From a virus: 27,187 nucleotides of DNA. Below are positions 517 to 27,187 of this stretch, one piece after another. The translations under genes and the position numbers were made by a program. Location: positions 1 through 27,187 of IMG/VR virus record IMGVR_UViG_3300044470_000119; one strand, written 5' to 3'. The stretch's first letter is position 1, and every line of letters starts with the position of its first letter. Below the pieces are notes generated by a model. That model made no database searches and was not told the DNA's origin. It saw only the letters and a program-made list of their open reading frames with translations.

Positions 517-2943
517 TTATTTTTTTTGATAATACTTTTCAATTCGTTTTCCAATATCGTGCCGGATTTTAAAGTCTGGAACGTATACGGAATTTTTCAG
601 GTAATCAATAAGATTTTCCCGAACTTGTTGGATATTTTTACCTTCGCGGCCAGTAACAGTCAAAAGATAGCCATTCTTGGTTGCTACTTTGTAGGCGATT
701 TCTCCGGTCTCTTCATCGGTAGATTTCTCAAAATTCTCCAAGTGAATGTGCTTGCGCATTTCATCATCAAAATCATCTACCGGCTTACCGTCTTTTAGTA
801 GCCAGAGTTTTTCTCCGATGGAAGTAGCGCTGTTTTCTAAATCGTTTTCAACTGGGAACGGTTTAGAGACTACGACCATAACCATACCTAGACCCATCTG
901 GATTTCAATCGGCTTACTTTCGCCACGCGCCACAGTAGACAGTAATTCACTCATAGGCATATTTAACCCCTCGGTGAACTCGTAAGAAGAAGCTGGGACG
1001 CCGAAGCGACAATTTCCATACCAAGCCGGTTTTCCATTCCTGCGTGTGTAGATAATATGATTTTCTACTTCAACACAATAGACATTATCATTATAGTATT
1101 CTCGTTTAATTTGTCTTGAATCTATATATGCTTCGGGTCTTTTATGTGATTCATAGACAGAGTATCCATCGTGATTTCTTATGTAAGTCTTATTCTTAAT
1201 AGTAACAGAGGTACCTTTTGTCCTTCTAATTGAAATGTTCGCGTATTTCCCTAATTTGAGTATTAGTTCTTGAAAATCGTCAGCTAATTTTTTAGATGTG
1301 GTGTAATAAGAATTACCACCGCTTTTTTTGTGAACACTTCCATCGCCAATTAAGAAGGCGTCTAGAAACATCCTAATTAGTCGCGGAGATAACTCTTTAA
1401 TATAATCTGGTACAAATTTTTCATTACATAAACCAAATTGTTTAAGATGTTTCCTTAATTGAACGCTAGAAATCTGGAAACCAGTTTTATATTCTTTGAC
1501 GTTAGGAAAATTCTTTAGTAATTCTCTTACTTGGTCTTTTTTAACATATTGAGATATAACTACTCCCCATTTTGAGAGACTTCCTTCGGCTAAATAGATA
1601 CCTAAGAACTTTAACCAATCTTCCATTGGCAAAGAGATTTCCGGATGGATTACATCTATCGTTTTCTTATGTTTTCCTAATGAATGTTTTTCAATATATT
1701 CTGGAATTATATAGTCTTTTATTTCAAATCCCGACCAATTTGCATCTCTTTTGATATTTACTCCGTTAGAAAGATTTTCTGCGGATATAAATTTCCATTC
1801 AAACCTATCTTTCTTTTTACCTCTTTTTACTTTTACATACATTTGATGGTTAGGGGTAACTGCAAAATCTAAAGTATGTGAGAATCTTGTTTTGATTAAT
1901 TCACCGTTGAAATTATATTCTATCTTTTTCTGAACAGGATTATATTCTAAATTATGCGTTTCTGGATTAAGAGTAGCTACTAACTCACCAATATCAGTAT
2001 CTTTAATCAACTTCCAGCCGTTTTTAGTTAAAATTTCTGTTTCTTTATCAAAGCAAGTAGGCTCCAATGCTACAATATCACCAGAATCTAGTTTGATAGT
2101 ATTAATATCAAAGACACCACGGAACTTTGAAGCCCGAAGTACGTTCAGAATTTTTTCATTCATTATAATTTTCTTGAACATCTCATTGGTTTCATCAACG
2201 CCGATGAAGGTAGTCCCCATCTCACCGGTGGTAACGCCCATGTCATGTTCAACTTCTTTTTTCTCTTCAAAATTCAGGAAGCCAACAACCTTACCCTCGG
2301 CGTTTTTCATGTAATCAGTGCCGTTGAAGAATACGGAAGCAGCGACTTCCAGTCCGGAGACTACTTCCATCAAATCAAAATCTACTTTGCCAAACTCGGC
2401 TTCATTCCACTTCTTCTTCATTTCCGATAGATGGTGAACCATGTCAGCATTGCCTTCAAACTTTCCTTTGTGATTCAGAGACTTTGGAGCATCTCCATTC
2501 TGCTTCATTATATATTTCTTGTCTGCGTTTTTCGTAACATAAGCGGTTGCAGATTCAAAGTTAGAGAAATTTTTACTTTCCGGTTGGGTAAAGCCCGCTT
2601 TCTTGAACCATTTCTGGCCAAGCTGTCGGTCATTTTCCAATCGGTCTCCATGTTCAGAACCGCCGAATACAGCCTCGCCCTTAGAGCGCAACCAGTCTTG
2701 TAACTTTCCAACCGAGCATCCGTCAAAAAGCCAAATATATCCTTTGCCGAGACAGTTGAGCCATTCCCAGTCTTTTAGTTTGGGAACAATGCCTTCACCA
2801 ATTTTGTTGTATTCGTGGTTGGGTACATAAAAATACGTCTCGCACTTTTCTACGTTGGCCAAATGGTCGGCAATATCCAATAATTCTCCGAATTCTGAAT
2901 AGATTATGAATGTTGGTTTATTCTTTTTTTCTGTATTTTCCAT
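517..2943 (-). CDS. PurD-like ATP-grasp ligase interrupted by an intein
   Basis: The ORF encodes 808 residues from the ATG at 2943. A GTG at 2961, overlapping the upstream TAG stop, would add six residues; neither start has a good Shine-Dalgarno. Removing the 348-residue intein leaves an ATP-grasp enzyme of about 460 residues. Its closest recognisable pattern is phosphoribosylamine-glycine ligase (PurD): a pre-ATP-grasp domain, the ATP-binding lysine in YIMKQNG (about K147), TTGEMGTT in place of the PurD TGGMG loop, and ALEPT-CRFGVP matching the metal-binding EFNxRFGDP motif. Members of the superfamily join a carboxylate to an amine with ATP. The true substrate here is unknown, because the match is distant and the gene lies among virion genes rather than purine genes. 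It could modify a virion or host component, or act as an auxiliary metabolic gene. The intein means activity depends on protein splicing. Confidence 0.85.
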   Translation of the reverse strand: MENTEKKNKPTFIIYSEFGELLDIADHLANVEKCETYFYVPNHEYNKIGEGIVPKLKDWEWLNCLGKGYIWLFDGCSVGKLQDWLRSKGEAVFGGSEHGDRLENDRQLGQKWFKKAGFTQPESKNFSNFESATAYVTKNADKKYIMKQNGDAPKSLNHKGKFEGNADMVHHLSEMKKKWNEAEFGKVDFDLMEVVSGLEVAASVFFNGTDYMKNAEGKVVGFLNFEEKKEVEHDMGVTTGEMGTTFIGVDETNEMFKKIIMNEKILNVLRASKFRGVFDINTIKLDSGDIVALEPTCFDKETEILTKNGWKLIKDTDIGELVATLNPETHNLEYNPVQKKIEYNFNGELIKTRFSHTLDFAVTPNHQMYVKVKRGKKKDRFEWKFISAENLSNGVNIKRDANWSGFEIKDYIIPEYIEKHSLGKHKKTIDVIHPEISLPMEDWLKFLGIYLAEGSLSKWGVVISQYVKKDQVRELLKNFPNVKEYKTGFQISSVQLRKHLKQFGLCNEKFVPDYIKELSPRLIRMFLDAFLIGDGSVHKKSGGNSYYTTSKKLADDFQELILKLGKYANISIRRTKGTSVTIKNKTYIRNHDGYSVYESHKRPEAYIDSRQIKREYYNDNVYCVEVENHIIYTRRNGKPAWYGNCRFGVPASSYEFTEGLNMPMSELLSTVARGESKPIEIQMGLGMVMVVVSKPFPVENDLENSATSIGEKLWLLKDGKPVDDFDDEMRKHIHLENFEKSTDEETGEIAYKVATKNGYLLTVTGREGKNIQQVRENLIDYLKNSVYVPDFKIRHDIGKRIEKYYQKK
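1012..2055 (-). mobile_element. Intein with LAGLIDADG homing endonuclease domain
   Basis: This is an in-frame 348-codon insertion that starts with Cys (CFDKETEIL), ends in Asn (KPAWYGN) and is followed by Cys (CRFG), as expected of a class 1 intein with a Cys +1 nucleophile. Splicing block B is TPNH at intein residues 67-70. Block F reads VYCVEVENHIIYT before the terminal Gly-Asn; the usual penultimate His is Gly, a tolerated variant. Two dodecapeptide motifs mark the homing endonuclease: FLGIYLAEGS (150-159, acidic E157) and FLDAFLIGDGS (230-240, acidic D238). The frame is intact throughout, so both splicing and nuclease functions may be active. It sits inside the ATP-grasp metal-binding motif, a typical conserved-site insertion. 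Confidence 0.95.
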
Positions 2944-2960
2944 ATAAATAAAAGGCCACA

Positions 2961-4970
2961 CTACTTAGTAGTGGTCTTCTTTAATCTTGCATGATACGCG
3001 TCCCGCTCGGCTTGAATCCGTGATTCTAGGTCTTGGCTTGCTTTTGTGCTTGCGGCGCTTGCGCTGGTTCCGCCGGGACTGTTAGCTTTCCCTGTTTGTC
3101 CATTAGTTTGCGGTCCTGTAGGCTTTGCACTACTCTCTGGCTGAATTGCTCCGGCGTCTCCTCCGGCTCCGGCTGCATCATTACTAATAATCGTTTCATA
3201 TTGGTCCTTTCCTAGGGTTGCCGCAGTGTCTCCACCAATCAATCTATTGCGCAGACTAGAGACAGCTTCCGGACTAATTGAATCAAATACATTTCTCAAA
3301 GCACGCTCTGGGTCTCGGATTTTATTCATAATTTCCCCAATAACAGCAATACCAGCGCCACGCGCGGTTTCTAATGGACTTTTTCCCAATACTCCCAAAA
3401 CAGTATCAAGCGTTCCATACTTCTGAACCCAAGTGCTTAATGAACCGCCAGTACTACCAGCAACTTTTTTCCACTGATTGACCATAGGCTTCTCAATGGA
3501 TTTCAAATCAGCATAAGAATTGCGTAGTTTCTGATAGCCTTCGCCGGTAGCATTTTCTATTTTGCTATCAAGAGTACCGCGAATAGATTGTGAAGCAGTA
3601 GCAGAAACAGTCGCTCCGGCGTTATCTGACATAGGATTTACGTCGGTATTTATTTTTTCTAAGAAACTCTGAATGCGGCCGAGTTCTGTATCAGCAAAAG
3701 TTGTAATTCCTTTTTTATTTGTCGTACCAAAATTGTCTTTGATGTCTTGAATCAGAGATTCAGCTTTAGACTTGAATCCGGAAGTAGCATCGCTTCCAGA
3801 CTTTTGGATGTCAGAAATAAGACTTTGGAAATTGTCTTGAGTAAATGCTGCGCCCTTATCTCCGGCTTGCGTAGCTAAGGCGGTGTATGAGTCATAAATC
3901 TTCTGTTTGGTCTGCTGGAGGGCTTGTGTTGCTTCGTAGAAACCATCTTTTGTAGGCTCCCAAGCCTTTTCTACGCCATCAGTTCCTTTAACCGTAATAT
4001 CCTTGGCCATGTTAGACATCGTCTCCAGAGCACGCGTAGCTTGTGGACCTTTAGAAGTTACATCAGACAGGCTTTTAACTCCGGTAGTACCAAGAGCTTT
4101 ATTTATATTTGTAGTAATATCACCCTTCCACGATATCCAAGCGTCCCCTGCGGCAGATAAAGAACCAAATACCGCGCCAGTACCAAGAGCTTGTTTAACA
4201 TTCTGACCATGTAAAAGACCCCAAGCAGTACCAACGCTACTTTCTGGGATTGCACTTAAAACTTTTTGAGCGACATAAGAGACATCTTTACCGATTTTAC
4301 CACCCTCTGCTGCAAGCTCCGGAAGTTTGGCTGATGCACCAACACCTTTCATTACATCTTTTCCAGCAGCAACATAGTCTGTTGGCACAGCTAATTCCGC
4401 TACTTGTTCAGCAACGTTTCCAGCAACTTGCCATCCGCCTTTTGGCGCGAGTTTATCTCCAACCATATTAGCAACAGTCTTTTGTCCGACTGCTGGAGCT
4501 GGAGCTATTTTATTCGTGATAGCGTTCCCAACACTTTGTAGCATGTTCTGTCCGAGAGATGCCGCGCCAACAGCGGTCTGTCCAATACCTTTAGCGATAC
4601 CAGTAATTTCTTGGCCGACAGAACCTTTTCTAATCATGTTTCCAACATCACTTATAAAACTAGGTGCTTTTGCTGGAGCTTGAGTTGCGCCCGATGCACC
4701 GAGCAGTCCTTTGTTAGAAAGATATTGATAAATTTGGTCGTCTGGTACACCCTGACTTCTTGCTGTCGTTATAAAGTTAGCAGCATTAAAATTAGCCGGT
4801 GCGCTAGATTGCGGAGTTTGTGGGGATGCCGAAGTAACCGACAAAGGGTAATTCTGTGTTGGAGCTGGTTGAGGCTGTTGCTGCTGCGTAGGTGGAGCAA
4901 TTGAAATACCCGCGCTGCCATTTACCGGAGTGCTAGATACTTTCGGAGATAATGAGAAAGGTTGTGCCAT
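2961..4970 (-). CDS. Large virion or ejection protein, unknown function
   Basis: This 669-residue protein has a Pro/Gln/Ser-rich N-terminus (about 10-60) and then a short motif, SQGVPDDQIYQYLSNKGLL, of a type I associate with large phage structural proteins. Next come a Gly/Ala-rich and partly amphipathic stretch (about 110-280), a long helical region (about 290-560) and a low-complexity Ala/Ser/Gly/Thr tail. Amphipathic Gly/Ala segments such as ITGIAKGIGQTAVGAASLG could contact membranes, as podovirus ejection proteins do. It starts one base after the stop of the lysozyme-domain protein and so belongs to the same block. An internal or ejection protein is an inference from position, size and composition; no enzyme motif is visible. 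Confidence 0.8.
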   Translation of the reverse strand: MAQPFSLSPKVSSTPVNGSAGISIAPPTQQQQPQPAPTQNYPLSVTSASPQTPQSSAPANFNAANFITTARSQGVPDDQIYQYLSNKGLLGASGATQAPAKAPSFISDVGNMIRKGSVGQEITGIAKGIGQTAVGAASLGQNMLQSVGNAITNKIAPAPAVGQKTVANMVGDKLAPKGGWQVAGNVAEQVAELAVPTDYVAAGKDVMKGVGASAKLPELAAEGGKIGKDVSYVAQKVLSAIPESSVGTAWGLLHGQNVKQALGTGAVFGSLSAAGDAWISWKGDITTNINKALGTTGVKSLSDVTSKGPQATRALETMSNMAKDITVKGTDGVEKAWEPTKDGFYEATQALQQTKQKIYDSYTALATQAGDKGAAFTQDNFQSLISDIQKSGSDATSGFKSKAESLIQDIKDNFGTTNKKGITTFADTELGRIQSFLEKINTDVNPMSDNAGATVSATASQSIRGTLDSKIENATGEGYQKLRNSYADLKSIEKPMVNQWKKVAGSTGGSLSTWVQKYGTLDTVLGVLGKSPLETARGAGIAVIGEIMNKIRDPERALRNVFDSISPEAVSSLRNRLIGGDTAATLGKDQYETIISNDAAGAGGDAGAIQPESSAKPTGPQTNGQTGKANSPGGTSASAASTKASQDLESRIQAERDAYHARLKKTTTK

Positions 4971-16761: not shown

Positions 16762-17688
16762 TTAAGAGGTTGCTGCTGAACCGACTGTCCACTGAAAACT
16801 TTGAAAACCTGGTCGTTCCATAACCGAACCGGTATAGACTTTGGTGCCATTGTTGATGACTTTGTCGTCATCAAAACGTGGACGCCAGCCCCATACCATG
16901 AAGGCCATGAAAGAAGCACGTTCCAAGTCGACTACGAACCAGTAATACTGGTAAGCGTCTGGGAACCAGTTGGATACTTTGTAATCAATGTATCCGAGAC
17001 CGTTGGCAAACACGTTTGATACGCGGTTGGCGGAATCTGGGTTACCGATAGAACGCAAGACTTCTTCTGCACGTTCTTTGTTTCTTCGACCGACAAGTAA
17101 TCGGAGCTTAGTGCAAGGCAATAAGCGGATTCCTTTGTCATCGTAGAACAAGTCCATGGTTTGAAGAGCGGTCTTGAGGTTGTCATAGCTTAGCGAGACG
17201 GTACCAAGAGTGTTGCTCTGTGTAGAACCATCCGCCATTGTGTGAGCGGAGTTATACAGAGAAAGTCCGTCGCCGCCGGTGAAGAAAGTTGTGCCGAAAC
17301 CAAGATAGAAGATTTTCGCTGCGTCCGTATCAATACGGGCGTTCAGAGAGTTCGCTACGCCGCCGACCAAATTGTTGATTTGAGGCCAGAGGTTGAAGCG
17401 AAGCATTTCTTCCGAGATGGAAATAGCGGTAGTGAACTTAATTGGCGTGATGGTAACTTGTTTACCTTCTTGGATGTCCTGACGGTGGTAAGGTTCTTGT
17501 TCACCAGTTTGCTGGGCGATTCCTAGACCTGTGAAGTTCTGAAATTCAGAATTCAAGATGTCGGCTGTCCAGTCTGTAAGGCCAAGCATTCCATATTCCA
17601 AACGGGTGGAAAGCTGGGTCTGTTTTTCATCCCATATATGACGTACGCGGGGGTCCGCGAGGTCAAATAATTGTGCTATTGTTGCCAT
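16762..17688 (-). CDS. Major capsid protein, HK97-fold type
   Basis: This 308-residue protein has the features of HK97-fold capsid proteins without a separate protease gene. An N-terminal arm (RHIWDEKQTQLSTRLEYGML) leads into an E-loop-like stretch (EQEPYHRQDIQEGKQVTITPIKFTTAIS), the helix EEMLRFNLWPQINNLVGG, the spine helix ANSLNARIDTDAAKIFYLGF, then TGGDGLSLYNSAHT and a C-terminal axial part with the strands YYWFVVDLERASFMAFMVWG and RPGFQSFQWTV. It directly follows the scaffold and decoration genes, the usual order. There is no clear Shine-Dalgarno. It starts five bases after the preceding stop. Confidence 0.9.
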   Translation of the reverse strand: MATIAQLFDLADPRVRHIWDEKQTQLSTRLEYGMLGLTDWTADILNSEFQNFTGLGIAQQTGEQEPYHRQDIQEGKQVTITPIKFTTAISISEEMLRFNLWPQINNLVGGVANSLNARIDTDAAKIFYLGFGTTFFTGGDGLSLYNSAHTMADGSTQSNTLGTVSLSYDNLKTALQTMDLFYDDKGIRLLPCTKLRLLVGRRNKERAEEVLRSIGNPDSANRVSNVFANGLGYIDYKVSNWFPDAYQYYWFVVDLERASFMAFMVWGWRPRFDDDKVINNGTKVYTGSVMERPGFQSFQWTVGSAATS

Positions 17689-22580: not shown

Positions 22581-23939
22581 TTATACTGGTGGTTTATATT
22601 TATCTCGTAAGTATGCGCTGCCTGTTAGTTGTTTCTTGCTCTGCGTCTGCCTGTAATAATCAAACTGGCGGACTGTGAGTCTATCTTCCGCGCTCTTGAA
22701 CGCTACCGGCCTGGTTGGTAAATCCCAGACTGCCAGCGCAAGGCTGAAAACCATATCATCATGCAAACCTTCTGGAACTACTATCTTAACTTTACCATTC
22801 TCACTTAATTCATAACGGAAACTGCGTAACTCGTCAAGTAAAATTGGGTCATTCGGTATGTGAATCGTTTCCTGTTCAAGCAGTAACTGTAAGTTGGTCA
22901 GCAAATTCTTTCTTGACTCTTCGGTGAAGTGGTAAGGTTCGGCACCAATGGACTTTGAAAGGTCTTCATAGATTGGTTCACCGACTCCAGTTGAATCAAT
23001 TCGCACTGCTGCCTTGTTATATTTGAAATGCTGCGTTTCAATCTTTGACTTCTGCAATGAATAATCCATCTGATTGAATCGCTCCTGCTTGCCGACTTTG
23101 AAAGTGTTCAAATCTATTGGCGTGATAACTGTATAGTCATGGTACTTTGCAAGGTCAACGCCCAGTCTGAACAATTTGCCGGGCAATACTTGGAATCTCT
23201 TCAATGGTTCTGGTTCATACTTATCATCATATACACAAGCATCAATGTTTCTAAAGAATTGGCCCGCGCCTTCAATGAACTTGCAATAGTATTCCTGCTC
23301 AAATAAATCGCGCGGCATATCCTTCAACTCTTCTTGCAGCTCATCCGTCGGCATAACGTTTGTGTCTGCAACTGTAAGCACTTGATAGAACCATGAGTCA
23401 GAATCTTTCGCTTGCTGTAATATCTTCCAGCCGTGGTTCATACCGCGCGGAGTGAATACAAAGATTGCAAAGCCTCCGTTTTCCAGTAATATAGGTCTAA
23501 CTAAATCCCATGCACGCTGTTGACCTACTGGATACTCTGAATAGACTACGCCGATTGGGTTTGTACCTACGATATTGTCAATTGAATCTCCTCCTATAAT
23601 CTGAAATGCAGAACCATTCTTTAATTCAATACGCATTTCCTGCTCATTGCGCCGAGCTATCAACTCTTCCGGGAAATGCTTCATCAATGAGAAACCGTCC
23701 CTATCCATTCCATCCCATAATGCTTTGCGGCCTTGATTGTACGTTGGGAAAATATAATAGTAAGTCCCGACACGCTCAATCATTTTCTTAATCACAACCT
23801 GTAGTGCTGTTTTGTCTTTTCCACTTCTTCGGTGCCAACAAAGCACAGCGCGTTTGAATCCTGAATCCATTGCCCGTAAGAATGGCAACTGATAAACACG
23901 CGGCGAATAGTGAAAAGGTATATCAACTTGAATTGCCAT
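22581..23939 (-). CDS. terL: Terminase large subunit
   Basis: This 452-residue enzyme pumps phage DNA into the prohead and cuts it. The ATPase domain has a Walker A variant, WHRRSGKDKTA (35-45, Lys41), an adenine-side motif (YYIFPTYNQGRKALWDGM) and Walker B, GVVYSEYP (130-137, Glu135), followed by the coupling segment FTPRGMNHGW. The RNase H-like nuclease domain shows the three expected acidic sites: GVDLAKYHDYT (Asp262), VRIDSTGVGEP (Asp315) and GLHDDMVFSLALA (Asp394/395). It starts 17 bases inside the small terminase gene. All key residues are present. Confidence 0.95.
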   Translation of the reverse strand: MAIQVDIPFHYSPRVYQLPFLRAMDSGFKRAVLCWHRRSGKDKTALQVVIKKMIERVGTYYYIFPTYNQGRKALWDGMDRDGFSLMKHFPEELIARRNEQEMRIELKNGSAFQIIGGDSIDNIVGTNPIGVVYSEYPVGQQRAWDLVRPILLENGGFAIFVFTPRGMNHGWKILQQAKDSDSWFYQVLTVADTNVMPTDELQEELKDMPRDLFEQEYYCKFIEGAGQFFRNIDACVYDDKYEPEPLKRFQVLPGKLFRLGVDLAKYHDYTVITPIDLNTFKVGKQERFNQMDYSLQKSKIETQHFKYNKAAVRIDSTGVGEPIYEDLSKSIGAEPYHFTEESRKNLLTNLQLLLEQETIHIPNDPILLDELRSFRYELSENGKVKIVVPEGLHDDMVFSLALAVWDLPTRPVAFKSAEDRLTVRQFDYYRQTQSKKQLTGSAYLRDKYKPPV

Positions 23940-25241: not shown

Positions 25242-25591
25242 TATTTTGGTTGGTTATTAAAAGTTGAGTTTATAGCTTGTCTAATTGCTGCATCTGCTTG
25301 GGCTTTGTCTGCAGGGCTTAGCTCTTCGCGGTTTTCTTCTTTGGCGACACGCGCGGCCTTATCTTTATTTGATTGAATTAACTCCGAGGCGCGTAACTTA
25401 ACGAAATAATCGTCCTGCGCTGCTTCATCAAGAAAAGCTGCGCTAAAATCTTCCGGCTTTATATGGGCTGCAATCAGTACGGCCCGGACTTGCTGGACTA
25501 CCTGCAAAAGATGCTCGTTGAAATAAGTCAGTAACTGCTGGCCTTCGGCGGTTAGCTTGGGTCTGTTATGGTCTTTGATGGGCTTTGCCAT
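25241..25591 (-). CDS. Hypothetical helical protein
   Basis: This 116-residue, nearly all-helical charged protein has KPIKDHNRPKLTAEGQQLLT, then a hydrophobic helix (LLQVVQQVRAVLIAAHI), acidic segments (FSAAFLDEAAQDDYFVK) and a Lys/Arg/Glu-rich end (KDKAARVAKEENREELSPAD). It overlaps the 3' end of the amber-interrupted gene by 40 bases and the next gene by one. No family or catalytic pattern was recognised. Confidence 0.75.
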   Translation of the reverse strand: MAKPIKDHNRPKLTAEGQQLLTYFNEHLLQVVQQVRAVLIAAHIKPEDFSAAFLDEAAQDDYFVKLRASELIQSNKDKAARVAKEENREELSPADKAQADAAIRQAINSTFNNQPK

Positions 25592-25845
25592 ATAATAAAA
25601 TGCGTTGGGCTAATAAATAATGCACGTCCGCGGCAAAACTCACATAGACACTCAAGCTTGCCGGTACTTGACGAAAAACCGCTTTTATCTTCTAGGTCGT
25701 AATACAAAACTGATGCGGTTGGAAACGTGTTAGCTAATTCATTATATTTTTTTATAGCTGGAACGTTCAGCATAAAAAAAGCCAACAGCTAAAAAGCGGC
25801 TGGACCAGCTAACAGAAAGCCTATATTTTTTGCTAAGGTTTTCAT
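25552..25845 (-). pseudogene. Membrane protein ORF interrupted by one in-frame TAG
   Basis: Reading from the ATG at 25845 gives MKTLAKNIGFLLAGPAAF, then TAG at 25791-25789, and then the same frame continues LLAFFMLNVPAIKKYNELAN to a TAA at 25552-25554. Ignoring the amber codon gives a 97-residue protein whose hydrophobic segment (about residues 8-30) runs smoothly across the stop. It is followed by a soluble tail with CLCEFCRGR (Cys-x-Cys-x2-Cys). Without readthrough, only an 18-residue peptide and a separate product from the ATG at 25773 (73 residues) or TTG at 25785 (77 residues) are made. The codon after TAG begins with C, a leaky context. It could be a recent nonsense mutation, programmed readthrough, or a leader peptide of an attenuator. 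It is the first reading frame behind the late promoter. Confidence 0.6.
25774..25803 (-). terminator. Possible weak attenuator hairpin over the amber codon
   Basis: On the minus strand CCAGC (25803-25799) can pair with GCTG plus GG (25789-25782, with a TT bulge), followed by seven T (25780-25774). The stem is short and imperfect. It lies about 45-70 bases after the predicted start of late transcription and covers the TAG, so it could act as a translation-sensitive attenuator. On its own it would be a weak terminator. Confidence 0.3.
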
Positions 25846-25851
25846 GCGGTA

Positions 25852-25881
25852 ATTATACCATTAAAGATAGCGAAAAGTCAA
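25852..25881 (-). promoter_or_regulatory. Leftward (late operon) sigma70-type promoter
   Basis: On the minus strand TTGACT (25881-25876) and TATAAT (25857-25852) are separated by 18 bases, and the -10 is preceded by TGG, an extended -10. Transcription would start near 25845, at or next to the ATG of the amber-interrupted frame, giving a leaderless or almost leaderless mRNA. It is the only strong promoter seen upstream of the leftward structural genes. Confidence 0.75.
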
Positions 25882-25897: not shown

Positions 25898-25926
25898 TTG
25901 ACAGGGGATAAGTTTTCGTATATACT
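25898..25926 (+). promoter_or_regulatory. Rightward sigma70-type promoter P1
   Basis: A consensus TTGACA (25898-25903), a 17-base spacer and TATACT (25921-25926) form a strong rightward promoter with start near 25933. Its -35 lies 16 bases from that of the leftward promoter, so the two are back to back and may compete or be co-regulated. The core TTCGTATATACT is repeated in P2. Confidence 0.85.
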
Positions 25927-25932
25927 ATGGAC

Positions 25933-26040
25933 AAGTTAGAACAAATAAACAAAAGTGCCCGTCAATAATAAATCTTACGTTTCTACATCTTGACGGGTGC
26001 GACGTAAGGTTTTTATTTTACGCATCCGCCAGTTTTTTTT
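25933..26040 (+). ncRNA. Candidate small structured RNA or attenuated leader
   Basis: P1 and the strong terminator define a transcript of about 108 nt without a convincing ORF. Pairing options are CCCGTCAA (25958-25965) with TTGACGGG (25990-25997), CTTACGT (25974-25980) with ACGTAAG (26002-26008), and the terminator hairpin 25991-26031, which re-uses the second arms of both. The first two pairs interleave (A-B-A'-B'), which permits a pseudoknot, while forming either blocks the terminator. The RNA could be a free phage small RNA or a switch that lets polymerase into the region downstream. The first ATG (25927) lies upstream of the predicted start, so it is not a leader peptide. Confidence 0.6.
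25991..26040 (+). terminator. Intrinsic terminator of the small RNA
   Basis: The 5' arm TGACGGGTGCG (25991-26001) pairs with CGCATCCGCCA (26021-26031) over about ten base pairs with one mismatch and one G-U pair, and the stem continues inward as TAAG/TTTA. One G follows, and then eight T (26033-26040). This is a strong rho-independent terminator on the plus strand. Confidence 0.85.
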
Positions 26041-26099
26041 GAAAGGGAACGGAGTCCGTATCAACTTATTGTCTTTCAGATTTTAGTTTTTCTGGCGGA
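26025..26099 (+). repeat. Inverted repeat linking terminator arm to downstream sequence
   Basis: TCCGCCAG (26025-26032), part of the 3' arm of the terminator, is exactly complementary to CTGGCGGA (26092-26099). Inside the loop GAAAG/CTTTC (26041-26045, 26073-26077) and ACGGA/TCCGT (26049-26059) also pair. In a read-through transcript the downstream arm would compete with the terminator. Confidence 0.6.
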
Positions 26100-26511
26100 G
26101 TCGCAAGCTAACAACCAAACCATGCCATCAATAAAATTATTATAATAGAAACTAGAAACGCACGCGCAAATTATTTTGTGTTTGCGTTTTTGTTTTCTAC
26201 AATTTCTATAAACGCCGGGCTTGGGTACTTTCGGCGATAAATAAAAGCATCCAGCGCATCCTGTATTGAAGATACTCAAAAATGCCGTTTTTATTAAAAG
26301 GTGTTTCTGACTACCTTCAATTAACCCGCCCAGGATGGACCGCGCAAGGCATCTCAGAGTATGACCTCCCAGATTATAGGATATATATTATTTTGTTTTA
26401 GTAGCTCTATCCTAGGCATGAGTGAAAGAGCGGGTTGTGCAAATCGGCAAAATGTACAACCGTACAGGACTATATAATAGAGCAAAAGTGGATAACTCAA
26501 ATATAAGCGCT
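26041..26511. other. Gene-free control region
   Basis: No convincing gene lies here. A 67-codon minus frame at 26076-26279 starts with TTG, has no Shine-Dalgarno and looks like chance. The region is AT-rich and holds several inverted repeats, notably nested CATCCTG/CAGGATG (26257-26263, 26331-26337) and TTGAAG/CTTCAA (26266-26271, 26315-26320), with AAAAA/TTTTT and AAGGT/ACCTT inside. No tRNA or iteron array was recognised. Function as a regulatory region or replication origin is open. Confidence 0.5.
26453..26466. promoter_or_regulatory. Operator-like palindrome
   Basis: TGTAC-AACC-GTACA is a perfect 5-base inverted repeat with a four-base spacer. A related sequence, TGTACGTTCGTATA (26565-26578), matches at 10 of 14 positions and overlaps the spacer and -10 of promoter P2. 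This would suit a dimeric repressor that controls P2, but no repressor gene is in view. Confidence 0.4.
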
Positions 26512-26539
26512 AAAAGCCCAATGAATACAGGGCTTTTTT
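26512..26539 (+). terminator. Intrinsic terminator before P2
   Basis: AAAAGCCC (26512-26519) pairs with GGGCTTTT (26530-26537) over eight bases with a ten-base loop and runs into six T (26534-26539). It would stop rightward transcription that had passed the first terminator and so insulate promoter P2. ACAGGGCTT (26527-26535) can also pair with AAGCCCTGT (26559-26567) just downstream. Confidence 0.8.
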
Positions 26540-26553
26540 CTTTGTCTAAACGC

Positions 26554-26582
26554 TTGACAAGCCCTGTACGTTCGTATATACT
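26554..26582 (+). promoter_or_regulatory. Rightward sigma70-type promoter P2
   Basis: TTGACA (26554-26559), a 17-base spacer and TATACT (26577-26582) form a consensus promoter with start near 26589. It shares TTCGTATATACT with P1 and has an operator-like sequence in its spacer. It reads into the rightward gene at 26683 after a leader of about 95 bases. Confidence 0.85.
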
Positions 26583-26591
26583 GTATTCAAG

Positions 26592-26638
26592 AGGGGAGAA
26601 AAAGGACAACAACAAAAATAAGCCTTCAAATCTCCCCT
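26592..26638 (+). promoter_or_regulatory. 5' UTR hairpin of the rightward transcript
   Basis: AGGGGAGA (26592-26599) is exactly complementary to TCTCCCCT (26631-26638), giving an eight-pair stem at the very 5' end of the P2 transcript with a 31-base A-rich loop. It may stabilise the mRNA. It also hides the purine-rich AGGGGAG, which could otherwise act as a decoy ribosome site. Confidence 0.5.
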
Positions 26639-26682
26639 ACTAACAAAACTAATAATGGCGAAAGCCGAAAGGAATAAAGACA

Positions 26683-27187
26683 ATGACAGGAAAAACTTAC
26701 AAGCTAATAATCGGGCATGACTACTCACTCTCCAACGAGACTGATGCAGATAGCCAAAGCGATTACTTCCCCGGAATATGGGGAATTGGTTCATACAAGA
26801 ACGCAATCAAATATGCAGCACAGTACATCGCCGAAGGAAATTTTGTTCACGTTACCGACTACGATAATCCCGCATATCACGCAATAGCTAACAAAGCCAT
26901 AAAAGAATTAGGACTTAGCCAGAAGTTATTTGAAGAGCCAAAGGGTTTGCCACAATCAAAAGTTACCAACGGCAATCCGGATTCTCTATCAGCTCTAAAA
27001 AGATATTTAGCGATTGGGAAAGAATTCACAATCAGCAATCACCGCGAAGCCGGAGCAGAAACTAGAAAAACTTCCGTGCTTGCTCACAGCGGAACATCGG
27101 TTATAGTGGAAAAAGTTTTAGGCGGCGGCGTAAAATCTTGGATGGACTTAGGCAAGGCTTCTGAATGGGTATTCTCAAACGACAAAG
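26683..27187 (+). CDS. First rightward (probably early) gene, partial
   Basis: An open frame runs from the ATG at 26683 to the window end (168 complete codons, no stop), with GAAAGGA about nine bases upstream as Shine-Dalgarno. It begins MTGKTYKLIIGHDYSLSNET, with later segments IWGIGSYKNAIKYAAQYIAE, FVHVTDYDNPAYHAIANKAI and GGGVKSWMDLGKASEWVF. It looks like a folded cytoplasmic alpha/beta protein with no signal or membrane segment. No family was recognised. Its place behind a strong host-type promoter, opposite to the structural genes, suggests an early phage gene. Confidence 0.8.
   Translation, partial: MTGKTYKLIIGHDYSLSNETDADSQSDYFPGIWGIGSYKNAIKYAAQYIAEGNFVHVTDYDNPAYHAIANKAIKELGLSQKLFEEPKGLPQSKVTNGNPDSLSALKRYLAIGKEFTISNHREAGAETRKTSVLAHSGTSVIVEKVLGGGVKSWMDLGKASEWVFSNDK

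Follow-up and report, generated by a model that had tools for sequence, protein, structure and literature searches.

A candidate leader RNA of ~108 nt (25933..26040, plus strand) in the control region of a phage contig of 27,187 b (a virus record; hereafter "the window", i.e. the whole stretch of DNA analysed) contains two helices, S1 and S2, whose arms are interleaved in the order S1a-S2a-S1b-S2b and lead into a U tract. The leader probably functions as an RNA switch governing transcription of the downstream genes, and a cis-acting transcription attenuator (conditional terminator) in the leader of a rightward early/replication operon is, on balance, its likely role. The best reading of the interleaved layout would make it a new topological variant of transcription attenuation. 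The initial annotation had proposed a conditional terminator or compact regulatory RNA, and this appears the best supported reading because the layout recurs at the syntenic position in relatives despite different sequences; its term "small RNA" is less well supported than an operon leader. The promoter match, the interleaved arms, the U tracts, the syntenic recurrence, the covariation in one pair of relatives and the association with replication genes are observed in the sequences; transcription, termination, the default state and the toggle of the switch are inferred.

Organization of the control region

The late genes of the window run leftward, among them those of the terminase large subunit (22581-23939) and the major head protein (16762-17688). 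The first late gene (25552-25785) encodes a small zinc-finger-like protein with homologs at the same place in three related contigs (L034, L035 and L036). Between it and the first rightward gene lie 0.9 kb without recognisable coding sequence, the noncoding region extending beyond the candidate RNA to 26682. The rightward gene (26683..27187, plus strand; 168+ aa) runs off the contig end, shows no match to PHROG or Pfam, and starts 640 nt beyond the candidate RNA, behind a second promoter.

The candidate RNA follows, as had been claimed, a consensus promoter (TTGACA-17-TATACT, 25898..25926, plus strand), which matches at 11/12 positions. The second promoter, upstream of the 26683 gene, is likewise a consensus match (TTGACA-17-TATACT, 26554..26582, plus strand), and the two have the -10 context TTCGTATATACT in common. 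This element spans the -10 box of both (25898-25928 and 26554-26584) and is perhaps a common operator; related palindromes occur at L035 promoters (ACGAATATTCGTA). The divergent late-gene promoter, also a consensus match (TTGACT-18-TATAAT, TG-extended; 25852..25881, minus strand), is followed in the late leader by a terminator-like hairpin with T7 (CCAGCCGCTTTTTAGCTGTTGG-CTTTTTTT, 25774..25803, minus strand). In L034, L035 and L036, as in the window, a terminator-like hairpin with a T run occupies the corresponding position, ~50-80 nt downstream of the late promoter, which suggests lambda-Q-like late antitermination.

The noncoding region contains several other paired elements: a further long, terminator-like hairpin (26146..26199, plus strand; 26164-26187 plus a T-rich tract in the terminator scan), a hairpin before the second promoter (AAAAGCCC/GGGCTTTTTT, 26513..26539, plus strand), and a long paired element at 26241-26350 (GCGCATCCTG...CAGGATGGACCGCGC), the minus strand of which folds even better (z ~-4.9). 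The second rightward promoter leads into a leader hairpin (AGGGGAGA...TCTCCCCT, 26583-26640) that resembles the hairpin GGAGAGG...CCTCTCC of contig L040 (6400-6480, reverse), with TCAAATCTCC present in both. Elsewhere in the window, an ATP-grasp-like protein of 814 aa (517-2961, minus strand) has, by eye, an apparent intein-like insert (CFDKETEILTKNG...WYGNC), and its middle part matches a thymidylate synthase PHROG, perhaps via the intein. A tRNA/tmRNA search of the window found none.

Helices and predicted terminators of the candidate RNA

The putative start of the RNA, 25933, was placed 6-7 nt after the -10 box, and its end coincides with that of the U8 tract. The two pairs of perfect arms described in the initial annotation (25958-25965/25990-25997 and 25974-25980/26002-26008) are present, and extend further if G-U and flanking pairs are included: S1 then comprises 11 bp (GTGCCCGTCAA/TTGACGGGTGC, 25955-25965/25990-26000) and S2 12 bp (AAATCTTACGTT/GACGTAAGGTTT, 25970-25981/26001-26012), the latter with the perfect core CTTACGT at 25974-25980. 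The 5' arm of S2 lies within the S1 loop, S1b directly adjoins S2b, and S2b runs into the U-rich tract GTTTTTATTTT (26010-26019; arm and tract together 26001..26019). The interleaving in pseudoknot order, as previously claimed, is well beyond chance, since 0/500 dinucleotide shuffles had S1, S2 and a T tract as strong as those of the window. The two helices thus have the makings of a predicted H-type pseudoknot, and S1 and S2 may coexist in this form rather than being mutually exclusive.

A third helix, 25990-26001/26021-26032, stands immediately before the U8 tract TTTTTTTT (26033-26040) and folds with -15.6 kcal/mol; its 3' arm is CGCATCCGCCAG (26021..26040 with U8). Its 5' side, for which S1b doubles, overlaps both S1 and S2, which bears out the proposed sharing of bases between the terminator and the two helices. 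Because of its long loop this hairpin was not listed by a simple terminator scan. The window RNA therefore carries two putative intrinsic terminators in the sense of a hairpin directly before a U tract, namely S2 with GTTTTTATTTT, and 25990-26001/26021-26032 with U8. The 3' arm of the U8 terminator also has a competing downstream partner, CTGGCGG (26092..26098, plus strand), the perfect complement of CCGCCAG at 26026-26032. The plain minimum free energy of the 108 nt is modest (z -2.0) because a pseudoknot is invisible to this calculation; 25932-26215 as a whole gives a folding z of -4.9.

In agreement with the earlier statement that no known family was recognised, a search of Rfam 15 gave no family at the gathering threshold, the best relaxed matches being at chance level. 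No homolog of the window RNA was found by DNA similarity search of phages and plasmids, by a 17-mer scan of IMG/VR, or by DNA search of ten records found via the capsid protein; a single 17-mer match in IMG/VR was dismissed as chance, as it lies in coding sequence of another virus. Protein searches did identify relatives; genome relatives are distant and mixed, and gave no host assignment. The position of the RNA next to the terminase operon prompted the idea of a phi29-type packaging RNA, which was dropped because transcription runs away from that operon and the counterparts in relatives lead into replication genes.

The same layout in related phages

The control regions of L034, L035 and L036 were located via their first late genes as anchors, and that of a fourth related contig, L037, was placed via the divergent promoter upstream of terminase. 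All four have the order S1a-S2a-S1b-S2b-U tract in this region, divergent from the late genes, beyond shuffles as in the window, in leaders whose sequences are unrelated to that of the window or strongly diverged. The promoter fires away from the late genes, and S1a follows the -10 box by 8-16 nt, compared with 29 nt in the window. L036 combines S1 GCTTTGGAAGGTC/GACTTTCCAAAGC with S2 AGCCCTACTGTCAGC/GTTGATAGTAGGGCT, and L037 combines S1 CCAGTGAAGGC/GCCTTCACTGG with S2 GTGCCTCCA/TGGAGGCGC; S2 of L034 and L035 is AAATCCGTTT/AAGCGGATTT, and their S1 helices are GTAGGGC/GCCCTAC and GATATAG/CTATATC, respectively.

L034 and L035 form the sole alignable pair, in which 6/7 S1 pairs have changed on both sides with complementarity kept, while the flanks of S1a are identical. 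Covariation, suggested as a check in the initial annotation, is thus seen in relatives; the window's own pairs have no alignable homolog on which to base such a test. An independent consensus fold of L034 and L035 shows two hairpins, the second being the terminator, with an S1 arm in the apical loop of each. The same kissing form is found in L099, with the hairpin ACATCA-GTACAAG-TGATGT and the terminator ACCGCCG-CTTGTAC-CGGCGGT followed by TTATATTTT. In most leaders the gap between S1b and S2b is 0-2 nt, and in most relatives a gene starts within ~4-40 nt after the U tract, which argues for a leader rather than a free small RNA. Another structured leader, upstream of a gene for 161 aa, is also conserved between L034 (8289-8841, reverse) and L035 (~3100 on the plus strand), and its hairpin covaries (GGAGUAAAA/UUUACUCC vs GGCGCAAAA/UUUUGCGCC).

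Association with replication genes

In the related uncultured phages the layout most often lies immediately ahead of the gene for DNA replication. A scan of 116 loci after promoter-like sites revealed 25 strong cases among 3,024 starts, versus 1 among 820 in shuffled DNA. The genes directly after the leaders in L036, L037, L045, L066, L069 and L072 match replication initiator, DnaD-like loader or replisome organizer PHROGs, and belong to different PHROG families; the leader of L099 precedes a replication gene too, by homology. The interleaved leader of L064 precedes a YopX gene. Another interleaved promoter-leader, in L026 (19150-19265, plus strand; AAGCTGTTGGTT/AGCCAACAGCTT with ATGCCCCCGC/GCGGGGGCGT), lies within the late region, immediately ahead of a NUMOD3/HNH endonuclease gene.

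With strict, promoter-anchored criteria the layout with a T tail was found in 6 of 221 noncoding leaders, five of them before replication genes, and the controls gave one case with an A tail, one with a C tail, none with a G tail, and none with a T tail in three rounds of shuffling. Under a looser criterion it was found in 5/6 replication leaders vs 8/215 others (Fisher 1.8e-6). Only the promoter-anchored form of the scan discriminates: counting interleaved helices genome-wide without the anchor is weakly informative, with T 17 vs shuffled 2 at -40 kcal/mol and no clear difference at -30 kcal/mol, and A-tailed cases turn up as well in a loose leader count.

As a prospective test, eight new loci were fetched by the replication protein alone. 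All four that have a noncoding leader (L139, L140, L143 and L144) show the layout, L143 being counted only once the scanner accepted a stem that continues into the U tract; since the scan criteria had been tuned after the first examples, these four are the only loci free of that influence and provide the cleanest evidence. In the other four the replication gene is inside an operon, and the layout is absent. A counter-example is L078, in which the layout was not found in the noncoding region upstream of the replication gene. Six annotated phage genomes contained no intergenic case, and three weak matches in them are all inside annotated genes; in cultured phages with homologous replication genes, these genes are embedded in operons that leave no space for a leader.

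DnaA-box-like sites (<=1 mismatch) are present within 130 nt upstream of the -10 box end in 12 of 14 listed leaders, and the window leader has no clear DnaA box. We propose an interleaved class characterized by a promoter within ~75 nt, the order S1a-S2a-S1b-S2b, a U tract, and a replication initiator as the next gene; the window has the first three, while its next gene (26683) is the one with no PHROG or Pfam match.

Proposed mechanism and alternative explanations

We suggest that RNA polymerase, on leaving the strong promoter, would make the upstream arm S1a first, and that S1 would form as S1b emerges, the order of synthesis favouring S1. In the variant of L034, L035 and L099 a hairpin loop would instead kiss the apical loop of the terminator. 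S1 would keep the terminator 5' arm in its loop, directly adjoining the terminator 3' arm; because S1b and S2b are separated by 0-2 nt in most leaders, a full S1 should hinder S2 from closing in the short time that the polymerase spends at the U tract, with readthrough as the result. In the window, S1 would also engage the 5' arm of the U8 hairpin, which should hinder closing of that hairpin before U8, and the 3' arm of that hairpin could turn to its second partner at 26092-26098. Where S1a is kept from pairing, the terminator would close and the operon would be off after ~90-110 nt. S1 would thus act as the antiterminator, and whatever occupies S1a would shut off the operon. The fold energies of S1 and S2 are near-equal in several leaders, no better than in the null; we therefore dropped energy balance as proof of a switch, and bistability is unsupported by energies.

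The main rival is a trans-acting RNA as in P4, which we regard as unlikely. Here a free small RNA of ~90-108 nt would end at the U tract, and its exposed S1 arms would pair with the same leader on other phage genome copies or with targets, giving control of copy number or superinfection like that by P4 CI RNA. The strong promoter and U8 that bound the RNA agree with this, as do the link to replication genes, as in P4, and the joint change of the 7-nt loops of L034 and L035 between fixed flanks, the pattern expected of a specificity element. However, in most relatives a gene starts shortly (~4-40 nt) after the U tract, the window contains neither another copy of the arm stretch nor anything closely matching it, and cis pairing is simpler because both partners are on one RNA.

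It is quite improbable that the element is an ordinary constitutive terminator ending a short transcript, with S1 as a stabilising pseudoknot or kissing contact of no regulatory role. Strong promoters commonly give rise to short terminated transcripts, and in L034, L035, L064 and L066 S2 folds with far greater stability than S1; yet an upstream segment complementary to the terminator loop turns up in many sequences unrelated to each other, focused on replication leaders, and covaries, whereas a passive terminator needs no such partner, and transcription has to reach the replication gene that follows directly. A translational switch, in which the S2 3' arm or the pseudoknot would control how ribosomes reach the start codon that follows the U tract, in the manner of pseudoknot-controlled plasmid replication leaders, is very improbable in our view: although an ATG lies ~4-24 nt after the U tract in L034, L035, L037, L045, L069, L072 and others, S2 contains GGAGG in L037 and AAGGG in L072, and the lack of a clear Shine-Dalgarno sequence at many downstream genes leaves room for translation control, most S2 3' arms are without such a sequence, the window has no gene start after the U tract, and the shared feature is a U-rich tract after S2, which translation control does not require.

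Antisense control was rejected, as antisense promoters are not conserved: the best scores for an opposite-strand promoter behind the leader, as in a pT181/pIP501-type attenuator, are 5-10 of 12, in nearly all not above shuffles, and the best in the window is 9/12 (shuffle 0.05).

Beyond the attenuator itself, one may speculate, with considerable doubt, on a topology-defined class of phage RNAs in which a loop or segment lying upstream complements the terminator loop of a replication leader, and the complementary pair diverges fast between relatives, like an incompatibility determinant; phages would then sense their own genome copies, in cis and in trans, by loop-loop pairing and set replication by termination. 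If the attenuator reading is true, many uncultured phages control replication genes via a leader RNA hidden from covariance-model searches because only the pairing order is conserved, RNA-controlled attenuation known from plasmid replication and P4-type immunity extends to ordinary tailed phages, and the leader is a compact, fully sequence-programmable terminator switch.

Comparison with known systems

A literature search, in which most subscription journals were outside coverage, found no interleaved terminators described on phage replication leaders, which is weak evidence of novelty. Among phage leaders, lambda 6S RNA (PR'-tR') is a short leader with a terminator just after a strong promoter, and HK022 put consists of two hairpins that bind RNA polymerase, while lambda Q acts via DNA. 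The window resembles them in having a short leader with a putative terminator after a strong promoter, at the late promoter likewise; we know of no interleaved loop complementarity described for these leaders. The preQ1-I riboswitch is an H-type pseudoknot with an overlapping terminator. In the fluoride (crcB) riboswitch, pseudoknot pairing overlaps the terminator (PMC2864571). Here, too, pairing in pseudoknot order competes with or adjoins a terminator, but there is no conserved ligand-binding core, and the relatives differ in sequence, with only the topology kept.

In satellite phage P4, CI RNA pairs with seqA and seqC, which leads to premature termination of the replication genes (PMC4825925). 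The common features are a leader RNA of a phage in which several segments complement each other and, as a prediction here, premature termination that silences replication genes; the P4 CI RNA is processed and trans-acting, whereas neither processing nor lysogeny is in evidence here. The c4 antisense RNA family of P1/P7-type phages (RF01695) can be grouped with P4, and no Rfam match to it was found.

The pT181-type attenuator of Staphylococcus plasmid replication genes has alternative terminator and antiterminator folds with loop-loop contacts; there the terminator 5' arm is the direct pairing partner of the antiterminator, and the state depends on a complementary antisense RNA transcribed from the other strand (PMC4878617). 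The differences are that the helices are interleaved here and that no antisense promoter is conserved. The likeness would lie in the position ahead of a replication initiator gene, the alternative folds and the loop-loop contacts; both folds of the pT181/pIP501 type are predicted, with an initiator downstream in the relatives and the unmatched 26683 gene in the window, where S1 would additionally, in the manner of pT181, sequester the 5' arm of the U8 terminator.
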